From Lineus longissimus (lineage: Eukaryota > Nemertea > Pilidiophora > Heteronemertea > Lineidae), in NCBI RefSeq assembly GCF_910592395.1, contig NC_088318.1, forward strand, positions 3,968,001 to 4,032,000: a DNA stretch of 64,000 bases, given 5' to 3'. Positions 29,493 through 63,928 of the stretch are shown here, piece after piece. Made by a program: the position numbers and the translations under genes. Below the pieces are notes generated by a model. The model did no database searches. It saw only the letters and a list, made by a program, of their open reading frames with translations, and had not been told where the DNA came from. Each line of letters begins with the position of its first letter. The first letter of the stretch is position 1.

Positions 29493-31799
29493 CTAGAACA
29501 GTTGAACACGATTGTTGCCAAAGTCCACCACGACCAATAAGCCGTCTGGTGAAACAGCGATCCCAGAGGGTCGATCTAAATTACCTGGTGCCCCTCCCTG
29601 GGATCCAAACTTACACAAAAACGTGCCATTTGGCTGAAAAATCTGGACCCGGTAGTTTCTGGAATCGGCAACTATGATGTTACCCTCCTGATCAACCACA
29701 ACACCTTGGGGTCGCATGAACTGACCATTTCCGGAACCCTCTGTACCCAGGAACCGTGCCGACTGAAAGTCTGGCTGAATCACAAGCAAACGATGATTAT
29801 TGAAATCTGTTACAAAGGCATGACCGAGACTGTTGAAGGCAACACCGCGTGGCGAATCAAAATGGCGCCACAACGGACCTTCGAACCCGTATTTGTTCAG
29901 AAACTGACCATCTTGTGTGAAAAGTTGAACCCTGTGGTTGCGTGTGTCTGATACAAGGATCTGGTTCTCAGAGTTACACGCCACGTCCCACGGATAGTTG
30001 AACTGCCCATTCTTACCACCTTTCTCACCAAACTTGAGGAGAAAAACACCTTCAAATGTGAAAATCTGAACTCTGTGATTATCTTTATCTGCTACGACAA
30101 TTCGGTTTTTCGCATCGATTTCCACGCCAGCTGGACGATCAAACTGTCCATTTCTTGATCCTGGTGAGCCGAACTGGTGCATGAACTTTCCCCTGGAGGT
30201 GAAGATCTGAACCCGATTGTTCGAACGGTCTGCAATGATGATGTTACCATCCTTATCACAACAGACTCCCCATGGCCTGCAGAGTCGACCCTCAAGTTCG
30301 CCTTCGCCGCCAAAAACGAATTCCGGCAAACCAGTCGTGGCAAGTTTGGTGTAATCTCGCCCGCTGCGAACAGTCACTGTAAAAGGACTATCACAAACAT
30401 GCTTACCATGAATTGTCACAGAGATAATGTGACTACCCTCGATCTGCGGACGATAATTCGCAGTGTAGGTTCCATTCTGACGATCAACGATTTCTGCACG
30501 ATACAGGACGCCCTCTGGACTCTGAATTATCACATCGATTGGATCGCCTCCCACCATCCGAGCATCCCCGTGATGATCCTTGGCTGCGATTTGAAAGTAC
30601 GTCACCTTCCCTTTGAGGGCGCGTTTCAGTCCGTCGCCAGTGGCCACACAATTTGGAGCATAGGCGCTGCTACTGATGAAGCCCATGTGACAGATGGCGA
30701 CATGAAGTGCAGCGTCTGGTGGCGTAAACACAATATAATTGTCCTCATGAGGTTGAAGATAGTTTCTCAGATGCCGCATGTTGTTTATTGACAAAACCAT
30801 ATCATCTTTGGTTTTAAGGACGTCAACATCAGTACCCGATTCCAGTGAAAGACGAACCTTTTCTACGGTGCCAGACAGACCACATAAACCTTTTTTCAGT
30901 TCCTCAACTTGCAAATGAAGCGACTTGCCCTTCACCTGACGAATTCTTTCCACTTGCCGCAAGAGCTGACGTTCGCGGTCCTCAAGGGCGTGAAGATGAC
31001 GGAGTGTTGTTTGACGCACCTCCGTCGCGACGGCCTGAGCTTGCGTTTCGACCTGTTCTGCCATTCCCTGAGTGGCTTTTATACTGTCCTCTATTGCTGA
31101 TATACCCGCTTCAGCATCTGATAGAAGTTTTAATGTTATACTTTTTGAACTTTCGACGGCGTCTTGGAGGTAGATGAAGCTATGCCTGAGGTGATCACTC
31201 ATGGTACATTCACGACAAATAGGTTGCGAGCAAGTATCACAATACAAACGTAATACTTCATGTTCATGTTTACTACAAAAACTAGGAGGTCGGTCCGAGA
31301 CTGGTTGAATAGGCGAGGCCACAAGCTGTGGCTGAGGTTTACTGGTTACAGAGTTATACATAAAGCGTACTATTTCATGATCTCTGGTGAGACGCACTCT
31401 TTGATGGGCACGCACACATTTATCACACAAGAATTCTGTACAATTACGACACTGTGAGGTAGCTTTACTCCCGTCTTCACACGAACTGCAATAGCGCGTT
31501 TTCTCGAGTTCCCGAGGCGATTCATATTCCTCTTCCTGAGTGACGACGTCAAGAATGTTATTGATGTTATTTATGAATGAATTTGATGGTAATCCATCCA
31601 CTCCCGCATCCCCTAAGGACATCCTCTGATGACACGTGGGGCACTGGACTATCCTGTCCTCACCCCCGCAAGCCAGGTCATCGAGACATCGTCGACAAAA
31701 TGAATGCATACACGGCAGCACTTTCGGGTCTTCTAAATGATCCAGGCAAAGCTGGCATGTGGACCTGTCGCCGAGCTGCTCTGGGTATGCTGCTGCCAT
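29493..31799 (-). CDS. TRIM71: TRIM71/LIN-41-type TRIM-NHL RNA-binding E3 ligase, intronless CDS
   Basis: A 768-residue protein from the first ATG (31799) to TAG (29495-29493). The frame is open for 23 more codons upstream but has no ATG there. Domains in order: RING (CQLCLDHLEDPKVLPC...CPTC, about residues 15-57), B-box 1 (CSSCEDGSKATSQC, about 103-142), B-box 2 (CSKHEHEVLRLYCDTCSQPI, about 172-214), coiled coil (about 214-330), filamin-type Ig domain ending 'SPFTVTVRSG' (about 380-480) and six NHL repeats to the C-terminus (repeat cores DRSNNRVQIF, DKDNHRVQIF, DTRNHRVQLF, DFNNHRLLVI, DSRNYRVQIF, DFGNNRVQLF). The NHL part is closer to vertebrate TRIM71 than to TRIM2/3, and like TRIM71 it ends directly after the last NHL strand. 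The family represses mRNAs bound through the NHL propeller and is the classic let-7 target in worms and vertebrates. Vertebrate TRIM71 has introns; here the CDS is one exon. Seed matches for let-7 and miR-125 lie in its leader and CDS. Confidence 0.95.
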   Translation of the reverse strand: MAAAYPEQLGDRSTCQLCLDHLEDPKVLPCMHSFCRRCLDDLACGGEDRIVQCPTCHQRMSLGDAGVDGLPSNSFINNINNILDVVTQEEEYESPRELEKTRYCSSCEDGSKATSQCRNCTEFLCDKCVRAHQRVRLTRDHEIVRFMYNSVTSKPQPQLVASPIQPVSDRPPSFCSKHEHEVLRLYCDTCSQPICRECTMSDHLRHSFIYLQDAVESSKSITLKLLSDAEAGISAIEDSIKATQGMAEQVETQAQAVATEVRQTTLRHLHALEDRERQLLRQVERIRQVKGKSLHLQVEELKKGLCGLSGTVEKVRLSLESGTDVDVLKTKDDMVLSINNMRHLRNYLQPHEDNYIVFTPPDAALHVAICHMGFISSSAYAPNCVATGDGLKRALKGKVTYFQIAAKDHHGDARMVGGDPIDVIIQSPEGVLYRAEIVDRQNGTYTANYRPQIEGSHIISVTIHGKHVCDSPFTVTVRSGRDYTKLATTGLPEFVFGGEGELEGRLCRPWGVCCDKDGNIIIADRSNNRVQIFTSRGKFMHQFGSPGSRNGQFDRPAGVEIDAKNRIVVADKDNHRVQIFTFEGVFLLKFGEKGGKNGQFNYPWDVACNSENQILVSDTRNHRVQLFTQDGQFLNKYGFEGPLWRHFDSPRGVAFNSLGHAFVTDFNNHRLLVIQPDFQSARFLGTEGSGNGQFMRPQGVVVDQEGNIIVADSRNYRVQIFQPNGTFLCKFGSQGGAPGNLDRPSGIAVSPDGLLVVVDFGNNRVQLF
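31065..31072 (-). promoter_or_regulatory. miR-125/lin-4 octamer inside TRIM71 CDS
   Basis: The minus strand reads CTCAGGGA, in the coiled-coil coding region (codons for T-Q-G-M). Confidence 0.4.
31167..31173 (-). promoter_or_regulatory. let-7 heptamer (CTACCTC) inside TRIM71 CDS
   Basis: The minus strand reads CTACCTCC, a match to let-7 nucleotides 2-8, just after the second B-box. Confidence 0.4.
31455..31462 (-). promoter_or_regulatory. let-7 octamer (CTACCTCA) inside TRIM71 CDS
   Basis: The minus strand reads CTACCTCA across the A-T-S codons of B-box 1. Confidence 0.5.
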
Positions 31800-31834
31800 C
31801 GGGGACGTTGACCATTGGGCCTTGGACTTGACGT

Positions 31835-32031
31835 TGAGGTAGTACAGGAAATAGGCCAAGCTGAGCAATCCGATTACACACAGTGCAGTACATTACACTG
31901 TGTATCAACATACATGAACACTTTCACAAAATGTCCAACACTAAAAACGGCACTGTTTACGGGCTGATTTCATATTCCCTGAGGTAGAGACTGAGCGTGA
32001 AGGTACCACAACATCTTAATTTATGAGGTAG
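31835..32031 (-). promoter_or_regulatory. cluster of three let-7 octamers in TRIM71 leader, one fused to a miR-125 octamer
   Basis: On the minus strand CTACCTCA occurs at 31842-31835, 31987-31980 and 32031-32024. The first is extended to TACTACCTCA, complementary to let-7 nucleotides 1-10. The second continues into GGGA, so CTACCTCAGGGA contains both the let-7 octamer and the miR-125/lin-4 octamer CTCAGGGA, sharing four bases. All lie between the inferred promoter and the ATG. Confidence 0.65.
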
Positions 32032-43550: not shown

Positions 43551-46500
43551 ATGGATGTGCTGCGCCCACCTTTGGTGTGGGCAATGGGCCAGTGTTATAG
43601 GAAAAATCTCTCATCAGAGGTTGAGGATGGGAATCAAGAGGACCCGGAGGACACAGCATATCATGGTGAGTTGGAGGTAGCCACACACTTTTGAAAATAC
43701 ACTTGCCTCTAGAATTATTTGACTGAATTGTACTCAAATTTTTCAATTGAATTTCAGATGAGTGTGGATGGAATGATGAAGTATGTGACAGTCTTATCTT
43801 GGAAGAGACTGACTCTGGCTTCAGATATGAGATGAGCGTCCCAAGTGCTTATTTTAAATTCATCATCGGAAAAAAGGCCGAAACAAAACGACGCCTGGAG
43901 AATGAGACAGCGACACAGATCAGGATTCCTAAACCAGGTCAAGATGGACCTATAGGTAAAGCTGTGAGATATGTTCTGGTTCCATTTCATCAGGCCTGCT
44001 CGAAATACCGTTCAACTTCTGATATCGATTTCAACTATGTATGTCAGAAGTTGTGGAGCTTTTTTGGAGTCATAGATTTTAACTATTAGTGTGTTAGATT
44101 TTGTGGAGCTATTTCTACAAGCAATGTGTGTAGTCATGAGAGCAAGCAGATTATGCATAACTACTGAGACCATAGCAGGAGGCTGGTAGGTCAGATTAAG
44201 TTACACAATGTGATACAATGAAAATAATCACGCTTGTATCAGTGGCATAATTATCACTGAATCAAACACAACACAGATTCCTAACTGTCCGTACTAGTCA
44301 TCGGAATTCTTGAAGACCGGAAGAATTTGATACCCTAGCTCCTGCCTATAGGCCCCCTTTAAGTTTATTTCTTAACTCTATCGGCATTGATCTGGTTTTA
44401 AAATGTTGTAGGTTCTTTGATGTGGCGGGTATGCAGATGCACTTTAATGCCTCCGTGTTAAGAATTGGTCACAAATAAGTTCAAGGTTATAACTTCCTAA
44501 ACTTTTCAAATCAATAGCATGCCGCGAAGTTATTCCAAAGTAAATTATCTTTGACCCTGCATTGTTTTTAGCATGAATGATACCATAGAGTCAGAGAGAG
44601 AAATAGTCAGAACAATTATGTAGTATTTCCAACACTCGGACATGTGCCAGATTGAATCTAACTGCCCTAGTTAGAAAGCCTGAATCCATTACGAAACCGC
44701 ATTTTGTCCGACATTGCCTGTAAATCAGCGATGGGGAAATAGAGGGCAGCAGCTGCAGTGACGTCATCTTCGCAGAATGCTATTCCTTTTTACCAATATA
44801 TTTAAGTTGCCCATTGTCCTTCAGTGATTCTTAGTCGTGAGCGTAGAGGTGTGGTGTCAGCCAAAACCAGGATAGATGTGATGGTCGATTCAGCTCGTCA
44901 GAGGCAACCGTTCACACATTTCCTCTCCTTCCCTGTGAATGGTCAGTCTGTCAAGGATTCATTCATGGACTTCAAGCATGATGTCTTACGGGAATGTGAC
45001 GGGGTGCGTATATTCTTATAAAGTTTACAGATAATTTTCAGAGGCAGACAGATAGAAATAGCGCTCCGCACTCCTGGCATAATAATCACTGGTGACCTTG
45101 ATCTCAGAAACATTGCTCCATTGTGCGACCGAGACATGACATTAGTTTGGTCTGTCATTTTCGTACTTTCTGATGGGTTTGTACTAAAATTGAGACCATC
45201 GTGTGGAGCTCAAATTATCATTGTTGCGCATCAGTCCGGCAACTCCTTTGTATAAGTGAGGACCAGAGTTATCCAACACTTTTGATGAATTAGAATGGCA
45301 TGCAGGGGCCTCTGATTCTTAACAGTACTAAATTGCTCAAAATAGATGAAGATTCGAAATGAGTGACCGTCTTCAACATTTTATCATATATGTGTGTTGT
45401 GATATTATAGCCTGTATTTCTTATAATCATAGGCCTACTTAACGAGTGTACTTATTACTTTTTGCCAATTTTCAGGATAGGGGCTTGGATGACACTTTAT
45501 TTCAGAATTCGTCCAAACTTCACCTGACCCTGGGAACCTTGGTGCTCCTGGATGATGCTGAGGTACAGCAGGCAGAAGAACTGCTTCAGGAATGTAAACA
45601 AGATTTAATAGGGTATGTCTCGAATTCTTATCGCAGGCTTCAGAAAAAAGTGACTATTGTGCAGCATTCATTTCTGTTTGCATCTTTTGGGATTCAGAGC
45701 ACACACTGAAACTTCTACCACAGTGCAAGACAGAGCAAATTTTTGTCTCAACAGTGAAATTTTGTGCAGTTCTTGTTTGGAAGTCGAGTTATTAAAAATA
45801 GACAATTGTCCACACTGCATGTCATCGGTTGAGCAGAATATTACAGTACCACGTCTATGGACATATTTTCCCCACGTCATTATTCTTTCCAACTTGCAGC
45901 ATATTCAGGTCAGGTCTAAGGTGTGCACCAATAGTTGCCTTTCAGGAGGAAAAGTGTTACCAATCTCGTCGAATTCCACCAGAGTCATGCACATTTGATA
46001 CACCATTCGTCATAATTAATGCAGAATACACTCAGTGGACTGTTGTACTAGCACTGGAGTTGCCTTGTTCAAGACATCGTTATTATCTTTTTCTGTCTTT
46101 TAGACCTGTCTCGAAGGATGAGCCACTGAAAGTCTACATCCAGGGCTTGGAGTACATGAATGATGATCCAAATGCTGTTGATGTGTTGTATGCTAAAGTG
46201 GAATTAGAAGATGAATCAGACAGGTTTGTAAGACATTTTTTAAGTTGAATCCATCTCCAATTCTTGGTGCCTTGAACCGTGGTTCTTCAAATAGCAAATT
46301 TCGACTGTGGCCAATCTTAACTCAAGGGCCACTCTTTGGAATTACTGACAGATGTCATAATGTGTCCATGATATTAATTTCCTATATGCCCATTTTTCCG
46401 AATGCAAAATTAACAGGAATCATCTCCAAAATATCACCCTGTGATTGGCTGACACTCCGTAAATGCAGAATTCGAATTCTCTCAAACATTCCGTTCAGAA

Positions 46501-49998: not shown

Positions 49999-52900
49999 CT
50001 AAGGGGGATGGGTAGGTGGAAAGTGTGCAGACTCCTCATAGGTAGGAAGCTGCAATGAAAAATGCGAACATACTGTTACGCACCCGTCGAAAAGTTATTT
50101 CAAATGGCTCAAATATGGCGTACATTTTTGACAAAAACAATAAGTTCCCTCGACTTTATTCAAGTCAATGAATTCTCCAGGGGCATTTTTAAATTTGCTA
50201 ACAAAGTAGTCAGCAGTAAATGCTGGAGTATAGTGTAGACTACCCCCTGCAAGAGGTGACACCAGTGGAAAATCTATCGACTGCGCTTGTGCTATAAGGT
50301 ATGAATTTACATCAGGCACATAGACTGTGCATGTGCTATAAGGTATGAATTTACATTTGGCACATACATGTACACTGCGCATGTTCTGGAAGGTATGTAC
50401 TCAACATCGCAAGCAGGAGATGTGATGCACGGGAGAACTATATTTACCTCAGGGTCAGCTCTTTTATACTGGTCTTGATTCGTGACAACCTCGGAGTATG
50501 ATGGAGGAGGTGCTACTGTTGGCAGCGGACCAGCAGGCTAGAACAGAAAGAAAACAATCAGGCAAAGGATATAGTATTATTAGATTAACAACCACTGCCC
50601 CAACAGAAATTTGTGCCGTCTTCTCCTGAAGTGCTTCCTCTGGTGATGAAGGGGACTCTTTTCCGAGCCAGTGGTTTCCTGCAATATTTATCACCAATAG
50701 GACTACTACTATAGAGCTACATGTATATCCCTGTTGACACTCAGTTCTCTAATCAATACCAGACTGAATAGTATTAACTAATGTCACTCACTTCTTGAAA
50801 TGAGTACCCCGTCGTAGGCCGAGTTACTGGTACGAATCCCAGGTTGTCGTTGGCAGGGGTAACAGGCATGCGTGGCATCTCAAACTCTTGGCCAGCACCA
50901 CCTCTGACTGGCCTTGCCGGTTCGTATTGCGATAACCTCCTGTTGCTTGCAAGAATGGCAGCTGAAGCGACAATAACATGGCCTAAAATTGCAGAGATAT
51001 CACACAACACAAGCATGAACTCATAATCATAACGTCAACTACAATGTATTACCTTTAGTCTGCTTTGGACTAGCATTGTGTAATCAGATCAGATGGTTTA
51101 TTTAGTTCAGGCATGGGAGTCATAAAGTTTGACAAATTAACTGGAATATGGTAGAGTATAGTTTCACTTTCATTTTAAGTGTTTTGGCTCACCTTCCTCC
51201 TGGTGCCGTCGTCTGCTCTTGTTCAGCATCCACCAGCCGCGTAATATCATCAGAGTGATGAGAATAGCAGCACCTAGCGACCCCAACAGCATCTCAAGGC
51301 TGTCATACCCAGAATCTGAAACAGAATATTTCTCTTTTAGTTCACTGTGGCCTACATGGGCACCTGTAACGAATAGGAGTAAGGCACAGAGCAGATTGCC
51401 AATGCCAGCAGTCCAGACACCAGACCACATTCTACAAGACAGTCCCCTGCACCAGGATTTGTGACAGAAATTCAGGCCCGCAGACACCAATGTTGAGGTA
51501 AAACTGTGGGGAACACAGCATGACCTCGAAATGACACGCCGTTTCATCTCCGCCACAGGACTGAAGTTATAGTTTTAGGCAGGTTGAAGACCGACGGAGA
51601 AGAAGTTCACTGGGACCTTGTTGTGTTTTATTAACTCTCAGGGTTCATGTTTCGAAACATGATTATTGTCTCCAGTTCTCCGTAATGACAAGTCTACTCA
51701 ATTAACTCACAAAAAAACTGCGGTTTGCCGTCAAGAAACACAAAATTGAGTTATTCACAAAGTCATATAAATAATTGTCAAGCATTTTTCACAGCCTAAA
51801 ACGTGTCCCCCCTTCATGGGTCAAGCAATACTCTACAACCCAGAAAGTTTTAATACAACAGTCAGCCTACAATTTAAGGGCAGTGTTAATTTTGAGATAC
51901 AGTTAATTAAGAATAAGATACTTCACTTCAGCTAATTCGTATGCATGATAACTGCACTATGACATTGTGTATAATTGCATTTCTATTTTCCTGGACCAGC
52001 AGGAATTACGAACGGCGTACCCCTCAAACCATACCTTGCCTGGGTCGATCATTTGTTTTCGGACAGTTCAACTCATCTGATCTATCTAAGCAGTCTGGTA
52101 TGTTATTACACTTTCGGAAGAAATCATAACATTTCCCCGTATCTTGACATCGGTAGCCCATACATATATCTGAAATGTAAACAATCATATAACGAAAATA
52201 GTTTAAAGTGATACTATGATGTGATTTACAACTTTGCGGAAATACGTCCGTTTATAATTGTTGATTACAAATGTAAAGCTCAAATTTTCCATTTTTGATT
52301 AGATTTATTATAAAATCGCTGAATGTAAACCACCGCGACCGCGAAAATGTTCATGTTGTGACGTCATCAACGAAAAAACCATCAATTTCTAGAAAATGTG
52401 CATTTCGATTCGAAAATCTTACCGATTTATGGGAAAGTGACGTAGTCATTTGTCAAAAACAGCTAAAACATTATATGGTGAAATTTGACATGAGTTACCC
52501 TTTAATTTCTAGTACCTTAATCCACTAGAGTAATCAATGACGCAGGAAATATTTTCCACAGAGACAAAAGACGCAAGCTTTGAGGTTGTTCTTGAAGGGA
52601 TTAAAGGTCTAGGACAACATGGGCGTGGGATTTAGTTGGCCAGGAGGATAATACCCCTACTCACCACCAGACGCTGATCTCCAATATTGATTTTCCCTAG
52701 TGTTGAAAGGCAGTTTTGGACCAGGCTTGGAGATTTCAGGTAAGCCTACAGTTACCTCCAATGGTCAGCCACATCACAAATGCAGGCAGCAATCCACCGA
52801 TCTTTACAAAGGTCTGTACTCGTAGAGTGATAGCCCTTGGAGTGATTGGTTTATACAGGCAACAGATATTGTACTTAACAGTTCTTCGAATGAGACTTAA

Positions 52901-54635
52901 AACCAAGGTTCCATGTATCTGGTGTCTATGCCAGGGCAGGTCACAGACCTCACCAAGTGAGAAACATGAGTACCTTGCGTGGACTAAACCTCTCACCGAA
53001 GTCGGATTCACCAGGCCAATAAACCCAATTGGCGTATAACCGTAGTGTCACGCATAAACGCTCATCCCGCCTTGGAGGAGGAATACTCCCTGGAGAAAAT
53101 CACCTCCAAGTGCAGAGTGAACGCTGTAGAAGAAGAAGAAGTGAACTAAAACTTTGTAGGTCAAAGATGAGAAACACGTACCACAGTAGCCCTTGTACTT
53201 TACACATGTACCATTAGAACACCTCTTTTCGTCACTGCGACATGGCTTAGGTTTCTGGACTGAAAAACAAATGGTTGCCACATGATGACCTCGTCAAAAC
53301 AATCATTCTGAGTTTGAATATTCCTTTGCATACAAACTTAGTACTTGCCCTGTGGTATAGACTCAAATAAGGGTTAGGCCTATCTGCGTCAATGGCTTGT
53401 GTGCTAACCACATGACGTCAAAAGGTGAGACTACATACATGAGCCAGGTAGGTCTGATTAAGTTACACCAAGTCGCCAAAAGGGGTTTCTCTATCCCACA
53501 GTACATTGAAACTAATGAACACTAAGTTACTCGTTAATACTTTGATAATACACCAAAATTGGTCAAACACAACATAGTCCTCCGACTACAACAGAATGAT
53601 GATGTTCACACAGTAGAAGGAAAATAACTATAGCTGAATCAAAAACAAGCCAGGCCCCTAACTGCTGCATACTTGTCACTTGAAGACTACGAATTAGACC
53701 TCATGGGTCCAGCCTGCCTATCGTCCCCATATAAATCAAAGAAACGCTCTTAGATTTTCTTGTGAGAGCATAGTAGCCTCCACTTAACTTGAGAGTAAAT
53801 ACTGTATCATTTACTTACCACAATATCGAGATGAGTACGCGCACTTGCCAGGGTAGTCAAGACAAGGCTTTGTGTAGTTGTAGTGCCGTAAATTGGAGAA
53901 ACCGCACGGTCGCACTGCAAGTACAAAATGGAAAGTCAAACGGGATTCCGCACGGCCAGCGATTCAGGATATTATTACCATTTTCTTGGGCGGTGAAAAT
54001 AAACCTCCTCATTTCCTGTTTTAAAGTCTGGCGCAGATTAGTTAGTTAAATAGATTCGGTGTCCTGATGAACGTGTGGACAATAGGGCCCGCATTAGGGT
54101 TCCATTCAGAACACCGTACTATATGACTTGATGACGCATCTATTGCTTGGATACTGACTGAGGGGCGGGAAGGACATTGTATTTCTTATGCGAAATTCAC
54201 TTTAACAGAAAAAACTCATAGTAACCGGAAAACTTACTGCAATCACGATCCGAGGTGACACAGTTATCCCCATTTTTTTTTCCACAGTAGACTGCACCTC
54301 GCCTTAATGACCCGCATTTTGCCCATGAAGAATCTGCAAAGAATTTTAAAGAAGATCTTGATGAACAAATACATCTTCTACACTTTAAAAGTGCCACGGA
54401 AATCCCTTGTCCCTTTAACTGGAGTTTCGAGTACCTGGTAACAGATAAATTTCTTAATTTTTGGAGTATGCTAGTGATTTCTACCAACATTCAACCACAT
54501 GCTGTTAACAGACTTTTATAGACACCTAATTAACTTCATTGGAAAAATGGTTTCCAACTCACCACATTTTATTGAATGATTAACGCATTTCCCATCAACG
54601 CACTGATACTTATAAATGGGACATCTCTTTCCCAT
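49999..54635 (-). CDS. gene B: single-pass membrane protein with four half-LDLa-like Cys modules and PY-motif tail
   Basis: Eight exons on the minus strand: 54635-54563, 54333-54238, 53914-53819, 53259-53182, 51315-51193, 50982-50792, 50537-50448, 50049-49999. Total 798 nt, 265 residues plus TAG. Exons 1-5 all end in phase 1. Exons 1-4 each encode one four-cysteine module: CPIYKYQCVDGKCVNHSIKC; a CG..YCG..GDNC..DC type; a CG..PC..PGKC..YC type; and CRSDEKRCSNGTCVKYKGYC. The last gap is always six residues. Exon 5 encodes the membrane span (LLGSLGAAILITLMIL) and a basic stop (NKSRRR). Exons 6-8 are cytoplasmic with 'APPPSYSEV' and 'LPTYEES', motifs of the kind bound by NEDD4-family WW domains. 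An alternative exon 6 acceptor at 50961 keeps frame. No signal peptide is visible; one may lie further upstream. Family unknown. Exon calls rest on splice sites, phase and similarity to gene C. Confidence 0.75.
51935..52025. repeat. dispersed repeat, also (inverted) at 62279-62390
   Basis: 'CATTTCTATTTTCCTGGACCA' and the following 'AATTACGAA' match, in reverse complement, the 62.3-kb sequence; the adjoining 'TGCATGATAACTGCA' also corresponds. A third related piece is at 59575-59727. It lies in the gene B intron. Confidence 0.6.
52203..52505. mobile_element. TTAA-flanked MITE (303 bp), copy 2
   Basis: TTAA at 52203-52206 and 52502-52505. Same sequence as 7976-8310 apart from few substitutions and loss of a block of about 30 bp after 'GACGTCATCAACGAAAA'. 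It lies in the gene B intron between exons 4 and 5. Confidence 0.85.
52895..53145 (+). repeat. SINE-like dispersed repeat with GAA-rich tail, copy 3
   Basis: Shares 'CTGGTGTCTATGCCAGGG', 'GCTCATCCCGCCTTGGAG' and 'GGAATACTCCCTGGAGAA' with the repeat at 1755-1990 and ends GTAGAAGAAGAAGAAG. Confidence 0.7.
53975..54163 (+). repeat. dispersed repeat in gene B intron, copy at 61203-61383
   Basis: Starts 'TTTTCTTGGGCGGTGAAAAT' and ends 'TTGGATACTGACTGAGG', matching the gene C intron sequence at 61203-61383 in the same plus-strand orientation. Relative to the two genes the orientations are therefore opposite, so the repeat was not simply copied with the gene. Confidence 0.7.
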
Positions 54636-56217
54636 AGTTGATTTGGAAGTAGTACTATGGATATCAATCCCGAAGTCAAATCATCTGAAAAAAATTTCAG
54701 GTCAATATTATTTGAAGGGTTGACAATGTAGTTCCTAAAGGATTTCTCTATCGATAGATATTAATTACCCAAAGGATAAATGTTTTAGGCCCACTGTTCA
54801 ACTGGATGAAAAGGCAAAGGGCAGGCCTATCATCATGATCATGCTTATGCCTTGGGCTTGGTATTATGGTAATGAAAATTGATAGGCTAGCTATACTCAC
54901 TAGACTAGTCTCATGCAAATGTAGGCCTATGCTATCCTTAAATTCCTCACCAGAACATCAGTTTCTTCCATTGCATCATTGTCACATCAATACAGTGACG
55001 TCTAATTTCAAGCAATGATGCAAAAATGTTGTGAGAAGAAGCTGAAATCGACAAGAAATGTGAATTTAAATGTGGTATTGTAAATGGGTTCCTGACATGC
55101 CCGAGTATTTGTGTTCTGCGCCAATTGCCGATTAGCGCTATCTTAAGATTGCGCTGCGCATTCTTAGGATCCTTTAATTGCGCGGCAATCTCGAGATCGC
55201 GCAAGGGTGTCTCTGCGCTTTTTGCCGATTGCGCATTTTAGAGATCATCCTTTTATGGCTTTGTAAGAAACAGATTTTCACTCATTTTACGTTGGTGTCT
55301 TTATTTTTAACCTGACTTTTTGCTACACCTTCGATTTGTCACGTTACTGTCATGTGACTGTCTATGGGATGCCGGATATGATGTGAATGCTGGCTCAGGG
55401 TCCGTCTCAAATCTTTGACTATGGTGATTTGTATGATTGTAGGCCTATTTGTACCGATATTTATGCTCCTGGTTTGGCTACTCTAGTTATTATTATAGTT
55501 TCTCCAATTACTTTGGCATTTTACTGCCTTTATAGCATGTTCTAAGCCTCAATTACTGCCACTCTTAATGTCTGTTGTCTTGTCATGTAGGCTAGGCCCT
55601 AGGCCTCCCCTGGCCTCAAGGTCTTCCTTGGGAAGGGAGACCTCATGCAAATGGTTAGGCCCTATTTCTTATAAGACACTCTATGCTTTATGTTATTTTC
55701 TCATTATAAATATAATATCAACTACATGTATTTTCTTTTCCAGGTTACTCCGGCCACAGCTTGCAGATATCCATCCTGAGAGTGACCACGCCCCTTTTGA
55801 TTGATCAAATACATTTGATTATAGTCCTGCCTGTAGTCTCCCTTCTTGGTCCAATTTGGTCATCTCCATTAATGTTGATCCCATTCCCTTCTTAAGCAAG
55901 GGGTCATCCATTTTATGATATGCATCTGAGGGGGGGAGGGGCGTCAATGTAAGCCCTACATTTTTACCATTTGAGGGGGGTGTCCGGAAATCCAGACTTT
56001 TATGCGTATGAAGCCTGCTAAATGGATGGCCCCTTTCCAATACAGCCTGTAAACCGTCCGCCTTTGATAAAATGAAAAACATAAAATTTTCAAGCGCATC
56101 GGTTGAAGTTATTTCACACAGAATGATGTTGATAATGACGATGAATAAAGACCAGGATCACTTCATAATTAATAGTTTATAGTTTATAGTTCATAGCTCG
56201 TACTAATAGTCTGTCTT

Positions 56218-57429
56218 TCACCACACTCCTTTACACACGACACACTTCCAGTTTTCGATTTTCGATTTCTTAGTCAGACGGTAACAGTCGTAATGACACC
56301 ACGTTAGGCATCTTTCACATTCGATCATCTTTGATCCATCGTCAATACCGCGACACTTGCAATGAATCGGCGCGTCGTAGGTTCGCAGAGTGGCGGTTCG
56401 AAATAGGCATTCTGACACGAAACGATTAAAGAAGCCTCTCTTGATTCCGTCGGATAGATCTTTTCGTACATCATCGTATGTCAGCGATACGGGATCCTCC
56501 CCGTAGGCGATCGATACTGCGTAGGCGACGGCAAATGGGCCACAGTCGGAGAAGTTACTTTGTTGCTGCACGTTCGCGAGTTCGAATGACAATTTCTCGT
56601 TCTCTGATTTAACAAATTTTGCCACGGATTGTTGCACTTCGGTCGATATCTCGCCCCGGTGTAGAGAGTCGTATACGGTAACAACGTTGTCTTTATTGCC
56701 GATTGCGTTTGAAGCCGTAACCCAATGGTCGTTTCCAGCATGTATAAATTGGACGAATTTCCCGGACGGTTTCTTGGTTTTAACATGCCCGTGGAGTTGC
56801 CGAACTGTTGATTCGAGGCCCGACAGTGCTGGTTCGATCTTCTTGATTAGACGATTTGATTCTTCCATATGTCGGTCCGTCAGCCAGTTGTTGTCGCCAA
56901 CGTACAGCATCGGGTTGAGGTTGGCATCACGTTGTTGATGTCGACTTGGTTTGGGTCTCTTGCAGGATCGGCTTGGGTGGCAGTGACTAGTACACTCTTC
57001 GTTCTCCCGAAAACAGGCGCATCGTTGCGTATCGCACTTTCCTCTACAGTTGCATTTGGCTTTGGACATCTTTTTCGGGTATGCTGATCTGGCGGCTGAT
57101 CTCAGGGACACGGTGGCGTCGAACTTCGGCACAATCGTGGATGAGTATGGCATTAGGTCACCTCCACGATAAGACCCGATATTGCCATACTCCGTGCAGA
57201 GGTGGTACTGCTTATCGTGATCTCCCGTAATCTTCGTTATGATGGCGGGTAGGCGGCGTGGATTGCTGCTGGCTCTGTCTAGCTTCGGGACTTCAATGGT
57301 TACGTGATCACCGACTTCAAATTCTGCGACCCGAATTCTTTTCCTCCTCTGGTAATTAAGGCGGCCATGCCTTTGATAATGTGAACAGATCTCACTATGA
57401 CACTTTGACCAATATTTTCTGACCATCAT
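56218..57429 (-). CDS. Ginger-type transposon protein, C-terminal part: GPY/F, Cys-rich, Ulp1/C48 protease, PHD
   Basis: A 403-residue frame from ATG 57429 to the TAG that ends at 56218 ('VVCKGVW'). In order: a GPY/F-like segment (VGDHVTIEVPKLDRASSNPR followed by LPAIITKITGDHDKQYHL, about 40-85), a CRC/CXC-like cysteine cluster (KCNCRGKCDTQRCAC, about 122-155), an Ulp1/SENP-like C48 cysteine peptidase with 'NNWLTDRHMEE', catalytic His in 'HAGNDHW', Asp in 'VTVYDS' and Gln/Cys in 'QSNFSDCGPFAVA' (about 178-340), and a PHD finger (CKCRGIDDGSKMIECERCL, to the end). Ginger1 DNA transposons are known for an integrase followed by GPY/F, PHD and Ulp1 domains. The integrase core expected upstream is absent: the start lies in the first of three tandem 100-bp copies. 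It may be a truncated but intact-looking accessory ORF. Confidence 0.8.
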   Translation of the reverse strand: MMVRKYWSKCHSEICSHYQRHGRLNYQRRKRIRVAEFEVGDHVTIEVPKLDRASSNPRRLPAIITKITGDHDKQYHLCTEYGNIGSYRGGDLMPYSSTIVPKFDATVSLRSAARSAYPKKMSKAKCNCRGKCDTQRCACFRENEECTSHCHPSRSCKRPKPSRHQQRDANLNPMLYVGDNNWLTDRHMEESNRLIKKIEPALSGLESTVRQLHGHVKTKKPSGKFVQFIHAGNDHWVTASNAIGNKDNVVTVYDSLHRGEISTEVQQSVAKFVKSENEKLSFELANVQQQSNFSDCGPFAVAYAVSIAYGEDPVSLTYDDVRKDLSDGIKRGFFNRFVSECLFRTATLRTYDAPIHCKCRGIDDGSKMIECERCLTWCHYDCYRLTKKSKIENWKCVVCKGVW

Positions 57430-57634
57430 CTCAGAAGCCTAATTAGCAGTGCTAATTAAGGCGGCCATGCCTTTGATAATGTGAACAGATCTCACTATGA
57501 CACTTTGACCAATATTTACTGACCATCATCTCAGAAGCCTAATTAGCAGTGCTAATTAAGGCGGCCATGCCTTTGATAATGTGAACAGATCTCACTATGA
57601 CACTTTGACCAATATTTACTGACCATCATCTCAA
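57354..57634 (-). repeat. exact 100-bp tandem triplication at the ORF 5' end
   Basis: Units start at 57354, 57454 and 57554 (third unit 81 bp). They differ by single bases. Each encodes, on the minus strand, the same 'KYWSKCHSEICSHYQRHGRL' peptide; units are joined by a 20-bp linker containing stops. Only the first unit is continuous with the long ORF. Confidence 0.95.
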
Positions 57635-58328
57635 ATCCAACAATAAATCACTGAACAATATGGTAGAACGAATTCTACTACTAGTAATACGTAGGGGACA
57701 CCATTTTCTTTCACACCAAGTTTCCCGTCCTCATTTTCTTTCATTCTTTACCGTTTACCGTTTACCGTCATAGCGGCATCTTGGCCCATGAAGGGTCTTT
57801 GCCTCCTTCATACGTAAACTTCTGCACTTCTTCATTTTATACGCATTCTGTCCCTTATACAATAAAACATTGCAGAAGTTGATGTTACTTTTCAGAATTC
57901 AAGCCCATGATCCGTGCAGAAGATTATTGTTGGAATGGCTACCCATATTTCATATATTTCATCATAATTTATGCAGTTTGATGTTGCAAATTCTCGGAGA
58001 GAACATAAACTCAGTTATATTATTTGCAGGCCAACATCTCACATTGGCTCATGCAACACACACAACACCCCAACTCCCTTGCGCGATCTCGAGATTGCCG
58101 CGCAATTATAGGATCCTAAGAATGCGCAGCGCAATCTTAAGATAGCGCAGATCGGTAAAATGCGCGGAACATTTGCATTTCAAGCTACAGTAGAGCCATC
58201 TACAGTATAGTACAGTAACTAAGACAGATCACTCCTTGCCAACTCGGCCCGCCCGTAAACTTTAACGTGGGTTAATTGTAATCTTACTCTCTACATACCA
58301 AAGTGATTTATATCCTCTAGGGTTAAAA

Positions 58329-58448
58329 TTTACAATCCCCGATCGGAAATGACGTAGTTTGATCGCATTCAACTATAAATCCATTGAACAGTGGTGCTTC
58401 GTTAGTCAACCGATGACCTTTTTTTGGGGTGTGATCGGGGATTGTAAA
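58329..58448. mobile_element. short inverted-repeat element (120 bp)
   Basis: TTTACAATCCCCGATC (58329-58344) is exactly inverted at 58433-58448. The right half recurs at the very start of the window. Probably a MITE. Confidence 0.65.
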
Positions 58449-58730
58449 CTCGTTCCATATCTAGGAATACAGTTGAACTTCACTGAAAACTATGGTGTGT
58501 TGACATGGTTAATATCATGAGTTCAATGAATTCCTTTGATTTTCCTGGCGAACTTACGTCCGACAATGATCCGTTGACGTGTACCTGCATTTCCATTTGT
58601 GTGTGTTAACAGTTATCTATTTTCGGACGAAGCTCAGTCCATCACAAACTTTGGTCGATTTCAGAGAGAACCTCTCATTCCATTTAGTCAATTATTCATG
58701 TGTTTTTTTCATCATGCCTACGGCTCAGTT

Positions 58731-58743
58731 GGGGGGGGGGGGG
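58731..58743 (+). repeat. G13 homopolymer run
   Basis: An uninterrupted run of G in the gene C upstream region. Confidence 0.85.
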
Positions 58744-59063
58744 CGAATGCCACACTTACTATTTTAATGTTCCTCTTCTTGATCATTGATGATGGCAAAA
58801 GTTAAGGCTGTGACAATGTCTCCGGCCGTGAAGTGGATAGGTCTGCTTGCCTCATGGCTTCTTCTCATTGTCCGCGAAAAAAGATAATTCTGAATGTATA
58901 ATATGATTGGCGTCTCAGGTCCTGCGGGTTGTCCCTGGGTTGGGGTGGGGTTGATTTTAAAATCTATGGGTGCCGGTAGGGAGATTTGGTTAGCAACTCC
59001 CATATGTCATTTTGTCATGTTCTTTCTGACAACTTTTTCTTTTTTTAGTGAATCACTGAAACT

Positions 59064-62000
59064 ATGAGTTCCAAATGCACTGGAAATAAGCCGTGGCAGT
59101 GCACTGACGGCACCTGCGTAGATAACTATTTTTCCTGCGGTAAGTCATGATACATCTAGAGCACCACATAACATGTGACCCATCACATCAAAATGGGTCA
59201 AGTTAAAGGGAACTGGAACCGCCGAGCGATTTATTCAACTTTTCGACTTTCACCGCCCGAGAAAGTCAAACTTCCAACTTCCTATTCGAGTTCAGATTTG
59301 TAGCTCCGCCCCCAGTGCCCGAGCTTGCGCAGTTCAATTTGTTATTATTGAGAATCATGTGAGAATCACGTGAGTCATGCGATCTTTCATTCATGAGTTT
59401 TCGTAGTAAATTCCATAGTAGTGACGTCACTCAATGATTGACAGCTAGGCGCCATGTTTCATTCATGCCTCGTTCTGATCACCCGATACGCGGGAAATGA
59501 AAACGAGGTCATACGAACTGGCTTGGCGGTTTCAGTTCCCTTTAAGCTCAGGACAGGTGGAGAATACACAGTGCTGTAGTGCAGTAATCATGCATATGAA
59601 TTTGTTGAAATTTGGTTTAAGTATTTGTGTATCATCGGCAATGCTGAAATTTATATTTAGTGTGTATCTATGCAATTAGAAAGTTTCTAATTCAATTGCA
59701 AATTACAAATTCTTAACGAATGGCCTCAAAGATTTGAAGTGTAATCTTCAGTTTTATACCACTCCCACTGTTGTATCTCGTGTCGTGCCTGTGATATTCG
59801 TGAATATATTTGGCCATCACTGCCTAATGACAAGTTCAGAAGATCGAATTGAGTTTTCTTTCTCTGGGTAACAGGCTAGATGAAGGTACATTTTCATGCA
59901 TTAGTGTAATGTAAAAGTAACTGAAACTAGCCGGGCGAAATTCTCTCTAACAACAGTTCTTCAATTGTATGATTCAAATGTGATACTTTTTTATTGCAGT
60001 TAGTCCGAGCTCAAAATGTAGGGGGAAGCTCAATTCGTACTACTGTGGACATCTTAATGGAGATAACTGTGTTTACAACGATGTTAATTGCAGTAAGTTG
60101 AAGTCAGTTCAGACAGGCAATTCAAATTGCTGTTGCCTGCGAAAATCACATGTGACTATAACTGCTGTGCCTCGATATCAAACCCAGTAACTACTTGTTT
60201 TACCTGCAGACGATTGATTCTTATGTTCGCTCATTAGGCCACACTTGTTGGTTTTGTTGGATAACGAATCTTTAGAGTCGAAACCTATGTGGGTGGGACG
60301 GAAATTTAAAAAGAATTAAAGATAATTTTTTCTTCAGGCTCAAAGCTATGTGGGGTGGGAATTAAAAAAAATTCCATCAGACTCAAAATCTATGTGGAGC
60401 AGGGAAATAAAATTAAAACATGCTTATTTTTCATCAATTTTAGTGTCAGGTCATACGAGAGGACCCAAAAAAATAAAAATTTGTTGAAATTGGTCGTTGG
60501 GAAAAATCTTTTTTCATTTCTCTCTATTTTATGGTTGGGGAAGGGAAAAAAGTGTGTCAAAAACGGTCGTCGGGACTTTCTTTTTTCCACTTTCCGGAAA
60601 ATGACCTCCGGCGACTTCGTAATCCAACAAATAAGATAGGGGGACCAGGCAGGAGCAGTGGGGTTAAATTGGGGCAATGGGTCATGTTAGATTTAGCTCT
60701 TAATATATTCGTTGTACAAGCGTGAATAGTTTTGACATAATGTGAGATGGAAGAGACCCCTATTGCCGATATTGTGTAACTTGATCTTGCCTACCTAGCA
60801 GCTGCCTATAGTGTCCCTTTAAGATAACTTCTTTTTTTACTTTTCTTTTTCCATTTCAGTGAGGGAGTGTGGCATGAATTCAGACGAAATGCATAAGTTT
60901 GACCGTCCCTGTCCAGGCTTCCCTGGAAAGTGTACTTGGATATCTTTTTATTGCCGTGAGTGCCAAATAAACAAATATTTCACTGCCATTTTTCCCTGCA
61001 ATTCCCACTAGCTTTAAATTCACCACCGCTGGATACAGCAGACTGCCCAGAGTGTCATTTTGTGCAAATCTCCTTCTGCCTATGTCTGACAGATGACGAT
61101 TGGTATGTACATGTACTTTATTGTTTAACCTGGAAACCTGAAACTATTCACCAGGTCAACTTTTAAAGGGATTCTGCACAATCAACATTTCTCCCTACAT
61201 TTTACATTTTCTCGGGCGGTGAAAATGAACCTTCTCATTTCCTGTTTATACGTCTAACGCAGATCAGTAAGCTAGACTCGGCCTGATGAACATGTGGACA
61301 ACGGGGCCTGCAATTGGGTTCCATTCTGAAACTCTCTTATGACTTGATTGATGATGCATCAATTGCGTTGATACTGACTGAGGCCAATAAGGCCATCTGG
61401 GTGTACCGTTAGGGAGGGTGATACGCCGGTAATAAAAATGTTAAAACTAATTTGCACATTTGTTTTCCAGCTTTTTCATGTGGTGATAAAGTCAACTGTC
61501 CACACAGTAACAGGTGTGAAAAGACATTGGCGTTTTGTGGTAAGTAAGTATTGTCGAAGTGGTTGGGACATCAGCCTATCAGGTCAGGGCTTATATCAGG
61601 GGTCCTTACTGGCTTTCTCAAGGTAGGGTGGTACCCTTGATATTCCAAATGTTTTGCCAGTCTGAAACAGAAGGTAGGGTGGCCAGCAAGTTGAGTTCGG
61701 GTGGCCCTATAGAAACCCTTCAAAAAGTCAAGAACAAGATAGGTTGGCTGCTTCCAATGGACGGTGGTAAGCTGCCAAGGTAGGGTGGGACACCCTGACA
61801 AATGGTCTTGTGGAGAACACTGTAAAATACCTGACGTTGTAGCAAAAGGTTACTTGGAGTTTCACTGCCATGGCCCTGTGGCTGCTGGTCCATTTCTGGT
61901 TATGTGCCGTGTATTGGCTGCTAGGTGGAGAGAAGCAATTTCATATCAGTTTTGAGATAAGGGGCTTAAAGAGGACGTGCAATGGTATATCGAGTATTCT

Positions 62001-63928
62001 ATTGAGTATGAATGCAGTACAAGACGGAATGTCATTCGGAGCGCAAAACAGAGCATTTTGTATGTCACGACTGACGTCACATTGTTTAGCATTTGTCAGC
62101 CTTTCCTTGCATGGACCAAGATCGCCTGCCATGGTTTTGGGAGTTATGGTAGCAACACAACTTCTGAGAGGAAATGTGTGGCAGTATTGTAATATGATGT
62201 TCCGTATGATAAATTGGGTGTTAAAGTTTTGATTGAACCATCTTTCTCATTAAAACGTCCTCTCTAGATAACCGCATTAAAGAGGTTTCTTCGTAATTAT
62301 GGGTGGACCAGGAAAATAGAAATGAAGTTGCTGTATGCACAATAGCGTTATGCAGTATCATGCACGCAATTTTGCTGAAACTTGGTGTGTCGTTGTAGTA
62401 TTTTTGCATCTGTTTACACAACGGCAATGTAGAAATTTATTTCTAATACGTACATACGCAATTGGAAATTCTCAAATTTAAATATTTTACGAATGGTGTA
62501 CGCCTTTAATCTTTCATTTTTTCAGATTCTTGTTTCAATTTCCGATGTGCAAATACAGGGATTTGTATTGCCAGTTACAAAGAGTGTAATGGATTCAATG
62601 ACTGTGGAGACTATTCAGATGAAAGGAATTGTGGGTCTTCAGGGTCAGGGTCTTCAGGATCAGGGTCTTCAGGATCAGGGTCTTCAGGATCAGGTTCTTC
62701 AGGGTCAGGGTCATCAGGGAGAGGCACGATCGATGTCAGTGGCCCAGCAGGTGAGAGAATTAAACTGACGTGTTCTCCTACTGAATAAACTGAAAGCCCT
62801 TTGATTCCTCACAATCGTGCCCAACCAGGCCGCAACTGTAATCTATCGTGTGAAATTGCGAACCACTTTTTTTTTTTTTTTTTTTATATAATTTTTATTT
62901 TCAAAAGTATCACACAATACAGAATATCATATAGCAATACAAAACAGGTACGTGTACATTTGAATTTTTTTTTTTTTTTAAACATAGACACCGTTCCCCC
63001 CTCACCCCTCCCCCCCTACGCACACACACCCTTACCCTTTCCCCTGGATAGTACTACATGAAAACTCGTTTGTGTCTGTTCATCCCGCAGAGCTAGTGAT
63101 TCCATTTTTTTTTCCTGTTTTTCAATTATTTTTTTTCTCCTTAAAGAGCCAACATAATCCTTTCGTTCAAGGTATTTAGATTTTAGGTTTATTGGGCTTT
63201 TTCCCCTGTCCGTCAAGCCTGGACCACCTGGAACCACCCTGAGTGCAGTTCCTGGGTGGTACCAAGCGGTGCATAACCCAGCGGGAGGGAAAGTCGCCTT
63301 TAATCATGTTGCGAACCACTTATCCCAATCAAAATTACTAATGGAACGATTAGTGTTCAAAGATGATGTCAGACGGTACCGCAGACGTTTTCAAAAGAAT
63401 TGTCGGCAAGAGACTGTATATATAGTATTAAAAGGGTACGGCTTATCCGAGAGTACCTGGTCTAGATCACAGGGAACTAAAAGACCAACCAAGTACACCT
63501 GGCCGGCAGTATCAAAGAGTTAACTGTCGAACAGTATCTTTTGAAACCTCAATCGGTAGAGCAGTGGACCAATAGTTGTTGAAATAACAGAAATAGACCT
63601 GCAGTTTGTAGAATGATTGTGTACATTTTCTAGTGCTTTCTAGAACGGCCTCCTACAGGAGAAACACTATAACCAACTGGGCATAATATCTTGTAGTTGT
63701 ACTGCTTTAGGGGACGTTGAACCCTTTACAGTTGGAGTCTGTATAAGCTTAGGAATTTTTATTCAATTTGATACTTCTATGCATTAACTGTATCATGTTG
63801 TATTCTTTCAGCGGACACCATGCCTATTGCCGTTGGAGTCTCTGTCAGCGTAGGAGTGTTCATTTTGATACTTGTGTGTATTCTCTGCATGGTACGAAAA
63901 AGGAACACGAATCGTGGAGGACGTGGAA
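59064..63928 (+). CDS. gene C: single-pass membrane protein with four half-LDLa-like modules, one LDLa repeat and Gly/Ser linker (3' end outside window)
   Basis: Exons 59064-59139, 60000-60092, 60860-60955, 61471-61539, 62526-62750 and 63812-63928, all ending in phase 1. Modules: CTGNKPWQCTDGTCVDNYFSC; CRGKLNSYYCGHLNGDNC then VYNDVNC; CG..RPC..FPGKC..FYC; CGDKVNCPHSNRCEKTLAFC. The last gap is always six residues, and the first three correspond one-to-one to gene B. Exon 5 holds a complete LDL-receptor class A repeat ('CFNFRCANTGICIASYKEC' then 'NDCGDYSDERNC', with the Ca-binding acidic motif) followed by five SSGSG units. Exon 6 has the membrane span (VGVSVSVGVFILILVCILC) and basic RKR. The tail continues past the window. 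The ATG at 59064 has an in-frame TGA 15 bases upstream within the inferred exon, so no signal peptide can be read through from there. Likely an N-outside membrane receptor-like protein; function unknown. Confidence 0.78.
59203..59545. mobile_element. TTAA-flanked MITE (343 bp) in gene C intron 1
   Basis: TTAA at 59203-59206 and 59542-59545. The inverted ends AGGGAACTGGAACCGCC and GGCGGTTTCAGTTCCCT differ by one base. A different family from the 7976/52203 pair. Suggests piggyBac-type transposition. Confidence 0.88.
59575..59727. repeat. dispersed repeat, copy of 62343-62500
   Basis: Shares 'AATCATGCA', 'GCAATG..GAAATTTAT' and 'CGCAATT..AAA' type blocks in order and ends ACGAATGG like the 62.4-kb copy. 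Confidence 0.55.
61203..61383 (+). repeat. dispersed repeat in gene C intron 3, copy of 53975-54163
   Basis: Begins 'TTTTCTCGGGCGGTGAAAAT' and ends 'TTGATACTGACTGAGG'. Clear similarity across about 185 bp. Confidence 0.7.
62279..62500. repeat. dispersed repeat in gene C intron 4
   Basis: The left part is inverted relative to 51935-52025 and the right part matches 59575-59727, so this copy links the two other fragments into one family of about 220 bp or more. Confidence 0.6.
62634..62712 (+). repeat. 15-bp in-frame tandem repeat coding the SSGSG linker of gene C
   Basis: Five units of TCTTCAGGATCAGGG type with single-base variants lie between the LDLa repeat and the membrane exon. The period is a multiple of three, so unit number can change without frameshift. 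Confidence 0.92.
62869..63308 (-). mobile_element. poly(A)-tailed retroposon insertion with 13-bp target-site duplication
   Basis: TTGCGAACCACTT is present at 62856-62868 and 63309-63321. Between them is a 440-bp insert whose minus strand ends in a poly(A) of about 20, preceded by an AATAAA-containing stretch. This is the signature of LINE-mediated retroposition. The insert has a 73-codon frame ('KYLERKDYVGSLRRKKI') that I do not recognise, so it may be a truncated LINE or a processed transcript. Confidence 0.85.
63322..63523 (+). pseudogene. degenerate chromodomain-like retroelement fragment interrupted by the retroposon
   Basis: The frame reads 'YIVLKGYGLSESTWSRSQ', close to the second half of chromodomains found at the C-terminus of Ty3/gypsy integrases, with the conserved aromatic of 'VKW' replaced. 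The reading frame to the left of the retroposon joins in the same frame at the target duplication, which suggests the fragment was there first. In gene C intron 5. Confidence 0.45.

Follow-up and report, generated by a model that had tools for sequence, protein, structure and literature searches.

Can a protein domain be cut at an exon border and still be kept by selection? The question is raised by two neighboring genes, here called B and C, in a 64,000-nucleotide stretch of the genome of Lineus longissimus (NC_088318.1, positions 3,968,001 to 4,032,000; hereafter the window, with positions counted from its first letter). LDLa (PF00057) is a textbook example of a module whose folding depends on calcium and three disulfides. 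Each of the two genes encodes four short modules with four cysteines, followed by an intact LDLa and a single transmembrane segment. Judging by their sequences, some of the short modules seem to be the front half of LDLa, and others are untraceable to it. If exon-bounded front halves do lie beside an intact copy, the module can be cut yet retained under selection, and genes B and C would be a natural test of which half of LDLa carries the fold. An initial annotation, made from the letters of the window without database searches, had proposed that all eight modules arose by truncation of LDLa and were then multiplied by exon shuffling.

Results

The pattern C-x(5-13)-C-x(4-7)-C-x6-C was matched exactly eight times in the six frames of the window, four times per strand and always within the region of the two genes. 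In all eight matches, a GT donor lay one base past the codon of the fourth cysteine (donor phase 1). When the window was resampled 20 times with a first-order Markov model, the mean was 1.35 pattern matches, and the mean number with such a donor (GT with at least four of the six bases of GTAAGT) was 0.05, with a maximum of 1. The place and cysteine pattern given for the eight modules were thereby borne out. A looser scan returned 12 matches: besides the eight modules, these were the intact LDLa of each gene and two isolated sites elsewhere that fall outside the stricter pattern. The modules have four cysteines each and not the six of LDLa spacing; their exons also lack the region from cysteine 4 to cysteine 6 and, with it, the acidic calcium site.

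Genes B and C stand head to head and are transcribed in opposite directions. Gene B, on the minus strand, runs from 54635 to 49999 in nine exons and encodes 303 residues. Gene C, on the plus strand, has six exons inside the window, between 59064 and 63928, that encode 225 residues so far; it is open at the window end and should continue past it, because exon 6 ends at a donor. The order of elements is common to both: modules 1 to 4, LDLa, transmembrane segment. All exon joins are in frame with GT-AG borders. Introns are in phase 1 from module 1 up to the first tail exon, and the last two introns of gene B are in phase 0. Between modules, the introns span 229 to 1,012 bases and the linkers 2 to 6 residues. 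The claim that each module occupies its own phase 1-1 exon held for six of the eight (modules 2 to 4 of each gene); it failed for the first module of each gene, which seems, from the sequence, to follow a 5'-untranslated region acceptor and to carry the start ATG. In both genes, reading exon 1 in the module frame from the first acceptor meets a TGA among the initial four bases, so the exon 1 ATG is the likely start. One other frame of gene B exon 1 is open from that acceptor, yet it is not the module frame. The start context, AACTATG, is common to the two genes.

The pairing of modules between the genes was at odds with multiplication by exon shuffling. The two ectodomains (first 160 and 155 residues) aligned over 145 codons with a score of 319; the best of 200 cysteine-keeping shuffles, made from the N-terminal 150 residues of both proteins, reached 136. 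Between B and C, dN was 0.61 to 0.66 and dS 1.37 to 1.53, figures that are rough because dS is near saturation. Mutual best partners were B1-C1, B2-C2, and B3-C3; the pairing at position 4 was unclear. This mutual pairing of positions 1, 2, and 3 implies that a multi-module array predates one whole-gene duplication. As read from these alignments, what the pair shows is the duplication of a whole multi-module gene and not an eightfold multiplication of modules.

Resemblance to LDLa differed from module to module. In single-module Pfam searches, B1 (gene B exon 1, coding part with the start ATG, 54563..54635, minus strand) matched PF00057 positions 1 to 23 of 37 (E 3e-4), C1 (gene C exon 1, coding part with the start ATG, 59064..59139, plus strand) positions 2 to 22 (E 0.035), and B4 (exon 4, 53182..53259, minus strand) positions 2 to 23 (E 1.8e-4). 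The fit of these three to the first 22 or 23 positions includes the DGxC-type turn and the gap of six residues between cysteines 3 and 4. None of the eight modules reached the Pfam gathering score (best, 22.1 bits versus 24.1), as is likely for half domains such as these three, which matched below it; B2, B3, C2, C3, and C4 had no Pfam match. No PF00057 match was found among 75 cysteine-keeping shuffles, run concatenated, a form in which the filters may be less sensitive. When a profile of B1, B4, and C1 was compared with the PDB, all 33 matches at E ≤ 10 were LDLa proteins. A profile of all eight modules matched six PDB sequences at the same limit (best E, 0.0045), of which five were LDLR or VLDLR and the sixth was tau, which is unrelated. 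These sequence matches support LDLa ancestry for B1, C1, and B4.

For the remaining modules the truncation proposal fared less well. LDLa ancestry was not supported for module 2 (B2, exon 2, 54238..54333, minus strand; C2, exon 2, 60000..60092, plus strand), for which 23 of 40 cysteine-keeping shuffles scored as well in a profile comparison with LDLa. It was not clearly supported for C4 (exon 4, 61471..61539, plus strand), equaled by 7 of 40 shuffles. Module 3 (B3, exon 3, 53819..53914, minus strand; C3, exon 3, 60860..60955, plus strand) was equaled by none of 40, but with a probability of 27% over 13 columns, so that its sequence lends such ancestry weak support. The LDLa reference for these comparisons held eight front halves, two of them from genes B and C themselves; it left out one partial repeat as too short, plus weaker fragments, and its automatic alignment placed the first cysteine wrongly in three of the eight rows. 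Profiles of module 2 and of module 3 had no PDB match at E ≤ 10. The predicted model of module 2 was poor (pLDDT 65.5), and its single Foldseek match was unrelated (E 6.7).

A complete LDLa with six cysteines and a DxSDE motif is encoded by exon 5 of gene B (52035..52169, minus strand) and exon 5 of gene C (62526..62750, plus strand), with PF00057 scores of 26.8 and 37.7 bits, respectively (cut-off, 24.1). The one in gene C had been singled out for comparison; it is present, but not alone. In gene C, it is followed by a Gly-Ser linker, encoded by a 15-bp tandem repeat of 5.7 copies (62633-62718), and then by the transmembrane segment in exon 6 (63812..63928, plus strand). Gene B continues on the minus strand with a transmembrane segment and basic stretch (exon 6, 51193..51315), cytoplasmic tail (exon 7, 50792..50961), tail with a PPSY (PPxY) motif (exon 8, 50448..50537), and C terminus with an LPTY motif and the stop (exon 9, 49999..50049). 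The combination of LDLa, one transmembrane helix, and a PPxY tail, as in LDLRAD3/LDLRAD4/PMEPA1-like adaptors, was found in gene B only, the tail of gene C lying beyond the window. No signal peptide was found in either gene model. Three N-glycosylation sequons in the gene B ectodomain speak weakly for an outside N terminus of B; the seen part of gene C has none and gives no such support. An open reading frame (ORF) at 58789-58887, just 5' of the first exon of gene C, has a signal-peptide-like hydrophobic start, and a scan for donors of GTRAG type found none in it.

Discussion

The explanation we favor, at a probability of about 0.6, combines a duplicated receptor pair, modules 1 and 4 from LDLa, and a mechanism involving a stalk, an LDLa, and NEDD4. 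A single ancestral gene, encoding a small single-pass receptor, would have been duplicated to give the head-to-head pair. If the genes are expressed, their products are most likely single-pass receptors with the N terminus outside, in which four four-cysteine modules would be followed by a calcium-type LDLa beside the membrane, a transmembrane helix, and a tail with PPxY and LPxY motifs, as seen in gene B. Modules 1 and 4 would be derived from an LDLa that was truncated behind its fourth cysteine; modules 2 and 3 may be much more diverged LDLa relatives or have another origin. Together, the short modules could form a disulfide-pinned, calcium-free stalk presenting the LDLa as a ligand site, while the gene B tail would recruit a NEDD4-family ubiquitin ligase for the sorting of receptor and cargo.

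The closest known proteins fit parts of this scheme. LDLRAD4 has one LDLa near the N terminus and no known signal peptide, and PMEPA1 itself is not known to carry an LDLa; we know of no four-cysteine array in LDLRAD4 or PMEPA1/TMEPAI. LRAD3 has a signal peptide. Searched against the PDB, the gene B protein matched LDLRAD3 (LRAD3) best, over the intact LDLa (E 1.8e-5), and the two share an LDLa, a single pass, and a tail with PPxY-type motifs, besides a probable outside N terminus. Lrad3 is described in a review as carrying two PPxY motifs and activating Itch and Nedd4 (PMC5331069). The account given there differs from genes B and C in listing three LDLa repeats, against one intact LDLa, and four-cysteine modules are not among the features it names in the parts consulted (PMC5331069). 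TMEPAI (PMEPA1) is reported as a single-pass type Ib protein, mono-ubiquitinated via Nedd4 interaction through two PY motifs (PMC5316989), with PY-dependent binding of NEDD4-2 (PMC8508116). As described, it resembles the predicted gene B product in its single pass, outside N terminus, and PPxY-type tail and differs in its short extracellular domain (PMC8508116). By analogy with LDLRAD3 and PMEPA1, the PPSY and LPTY motifs suggest NEDD4-family recruitment by the tail of gene B.

Several results weigh against parts of the favored explanation: module 2 against an LDLa origin of all modules, C4 against that of modules 1 and 4, the absence of PDB matches for modules 2 and 3, and the lack of a leader on a cysteine-rich ectodomain, which is unusual. 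It is less likely than not that a self-standing family of four-cysteine domains, with two disulfides and no calcium, arose from LDLa cut after cysteine 4 and gave all four module types by duplication and divergence. The modules could instead be a separate, older four-cysteine domain, the LDLa likeness of modules 1 and 4 reflecting convergence on C-x-DGxC spacing. The five modules without a Pfam match, the empty profile searches with modules 2 and 3, and the poor module 2 model with its unrelated structural match favor such an origin, but B1, B4, and C1 resemble LDLa beyond their cysteines, and each gene also has a phase 1-1 exon that encodes an intact LDLa; we regard such an origin as unlikely. 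Slightly better placed, though still improbable, is cysteine pairing across exon borders, with cysteines 1 and 2 of module 2 replacing LDLa cysteines 5 and 6 for module 1 in a calcium-less LDLa-like knot, so that the modules would not be independent domains. The linkers are short, and from the first cysteine of module 1 to the second of module 2 the spacing in the gene models is C-x6/7-C-x4-C-x6-C-x6-C-x9/8-C, close to the spacing that the intact LDLa has in both genes (C-x4-C-x5-C-x6-C-x5-C-x8-C). However, no acidic residue lies between cysteines 1 and 2 of module 2 in either gene, so such a knot would have no calcium site; the arrangement fails for module 4 with LDLa, and modules 2 to 4 each have their own phase 1-1 exon.

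That the modules are full LDLa whose second halves sit on small exons missed here is very improbable. The introns between modules are long enough to hold a small exon, but no separate exon for the missing half was found in those scanned. A manually built motif for the second half of LDLa gave a score of 19.5 in each of the two intact LDLa; in the eight introns downstream of a module its scores did not exceed 11, and the three introns scoring at least 10 were equaled by 8 to 18% of 50 shuffles each. Across nine introns, the splice filters let through no small open exon of phase 1-1 that had at least two cysteines. An upstream signal-peptide exon, which would make the proteins ordinary type I receptors, is a minority possibility that deserves more weight. 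Besides the missing leader, it is favored by the hydrophobic start of the ORF at 58789, and exon 1 could contain another acceptor. Against it stand the module-frame TGA at the start of exon 1 and the AACTATG context, both found in the two genes, and the lack of a GTRAG-type donor in that ORF.

Other features of the window

Between genes B and C lies a transposon-like element (55112-58171) with inverted arms of 99 nt that are 91% complementary and with TTTG at both outer borders, a possible target-site duplication. Its minus-strand ORF (56221-57438) matches Ulp1 peptidase C48, with a PHD finger just under the cut-off, and a 100-bp unit is repeated within the element in 2.8 copies that are 99% alike (57353-57633). 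Plus-strand ORFs at 43751-46245 encode KH and AKAP7_NLS domains, a combination resembling ASCC1. On the minus strand, an ORF of 799 residues (29496-31892) with RING, B-box, filamin, and NHL repeats encodes a TRIM-NHL type protein.
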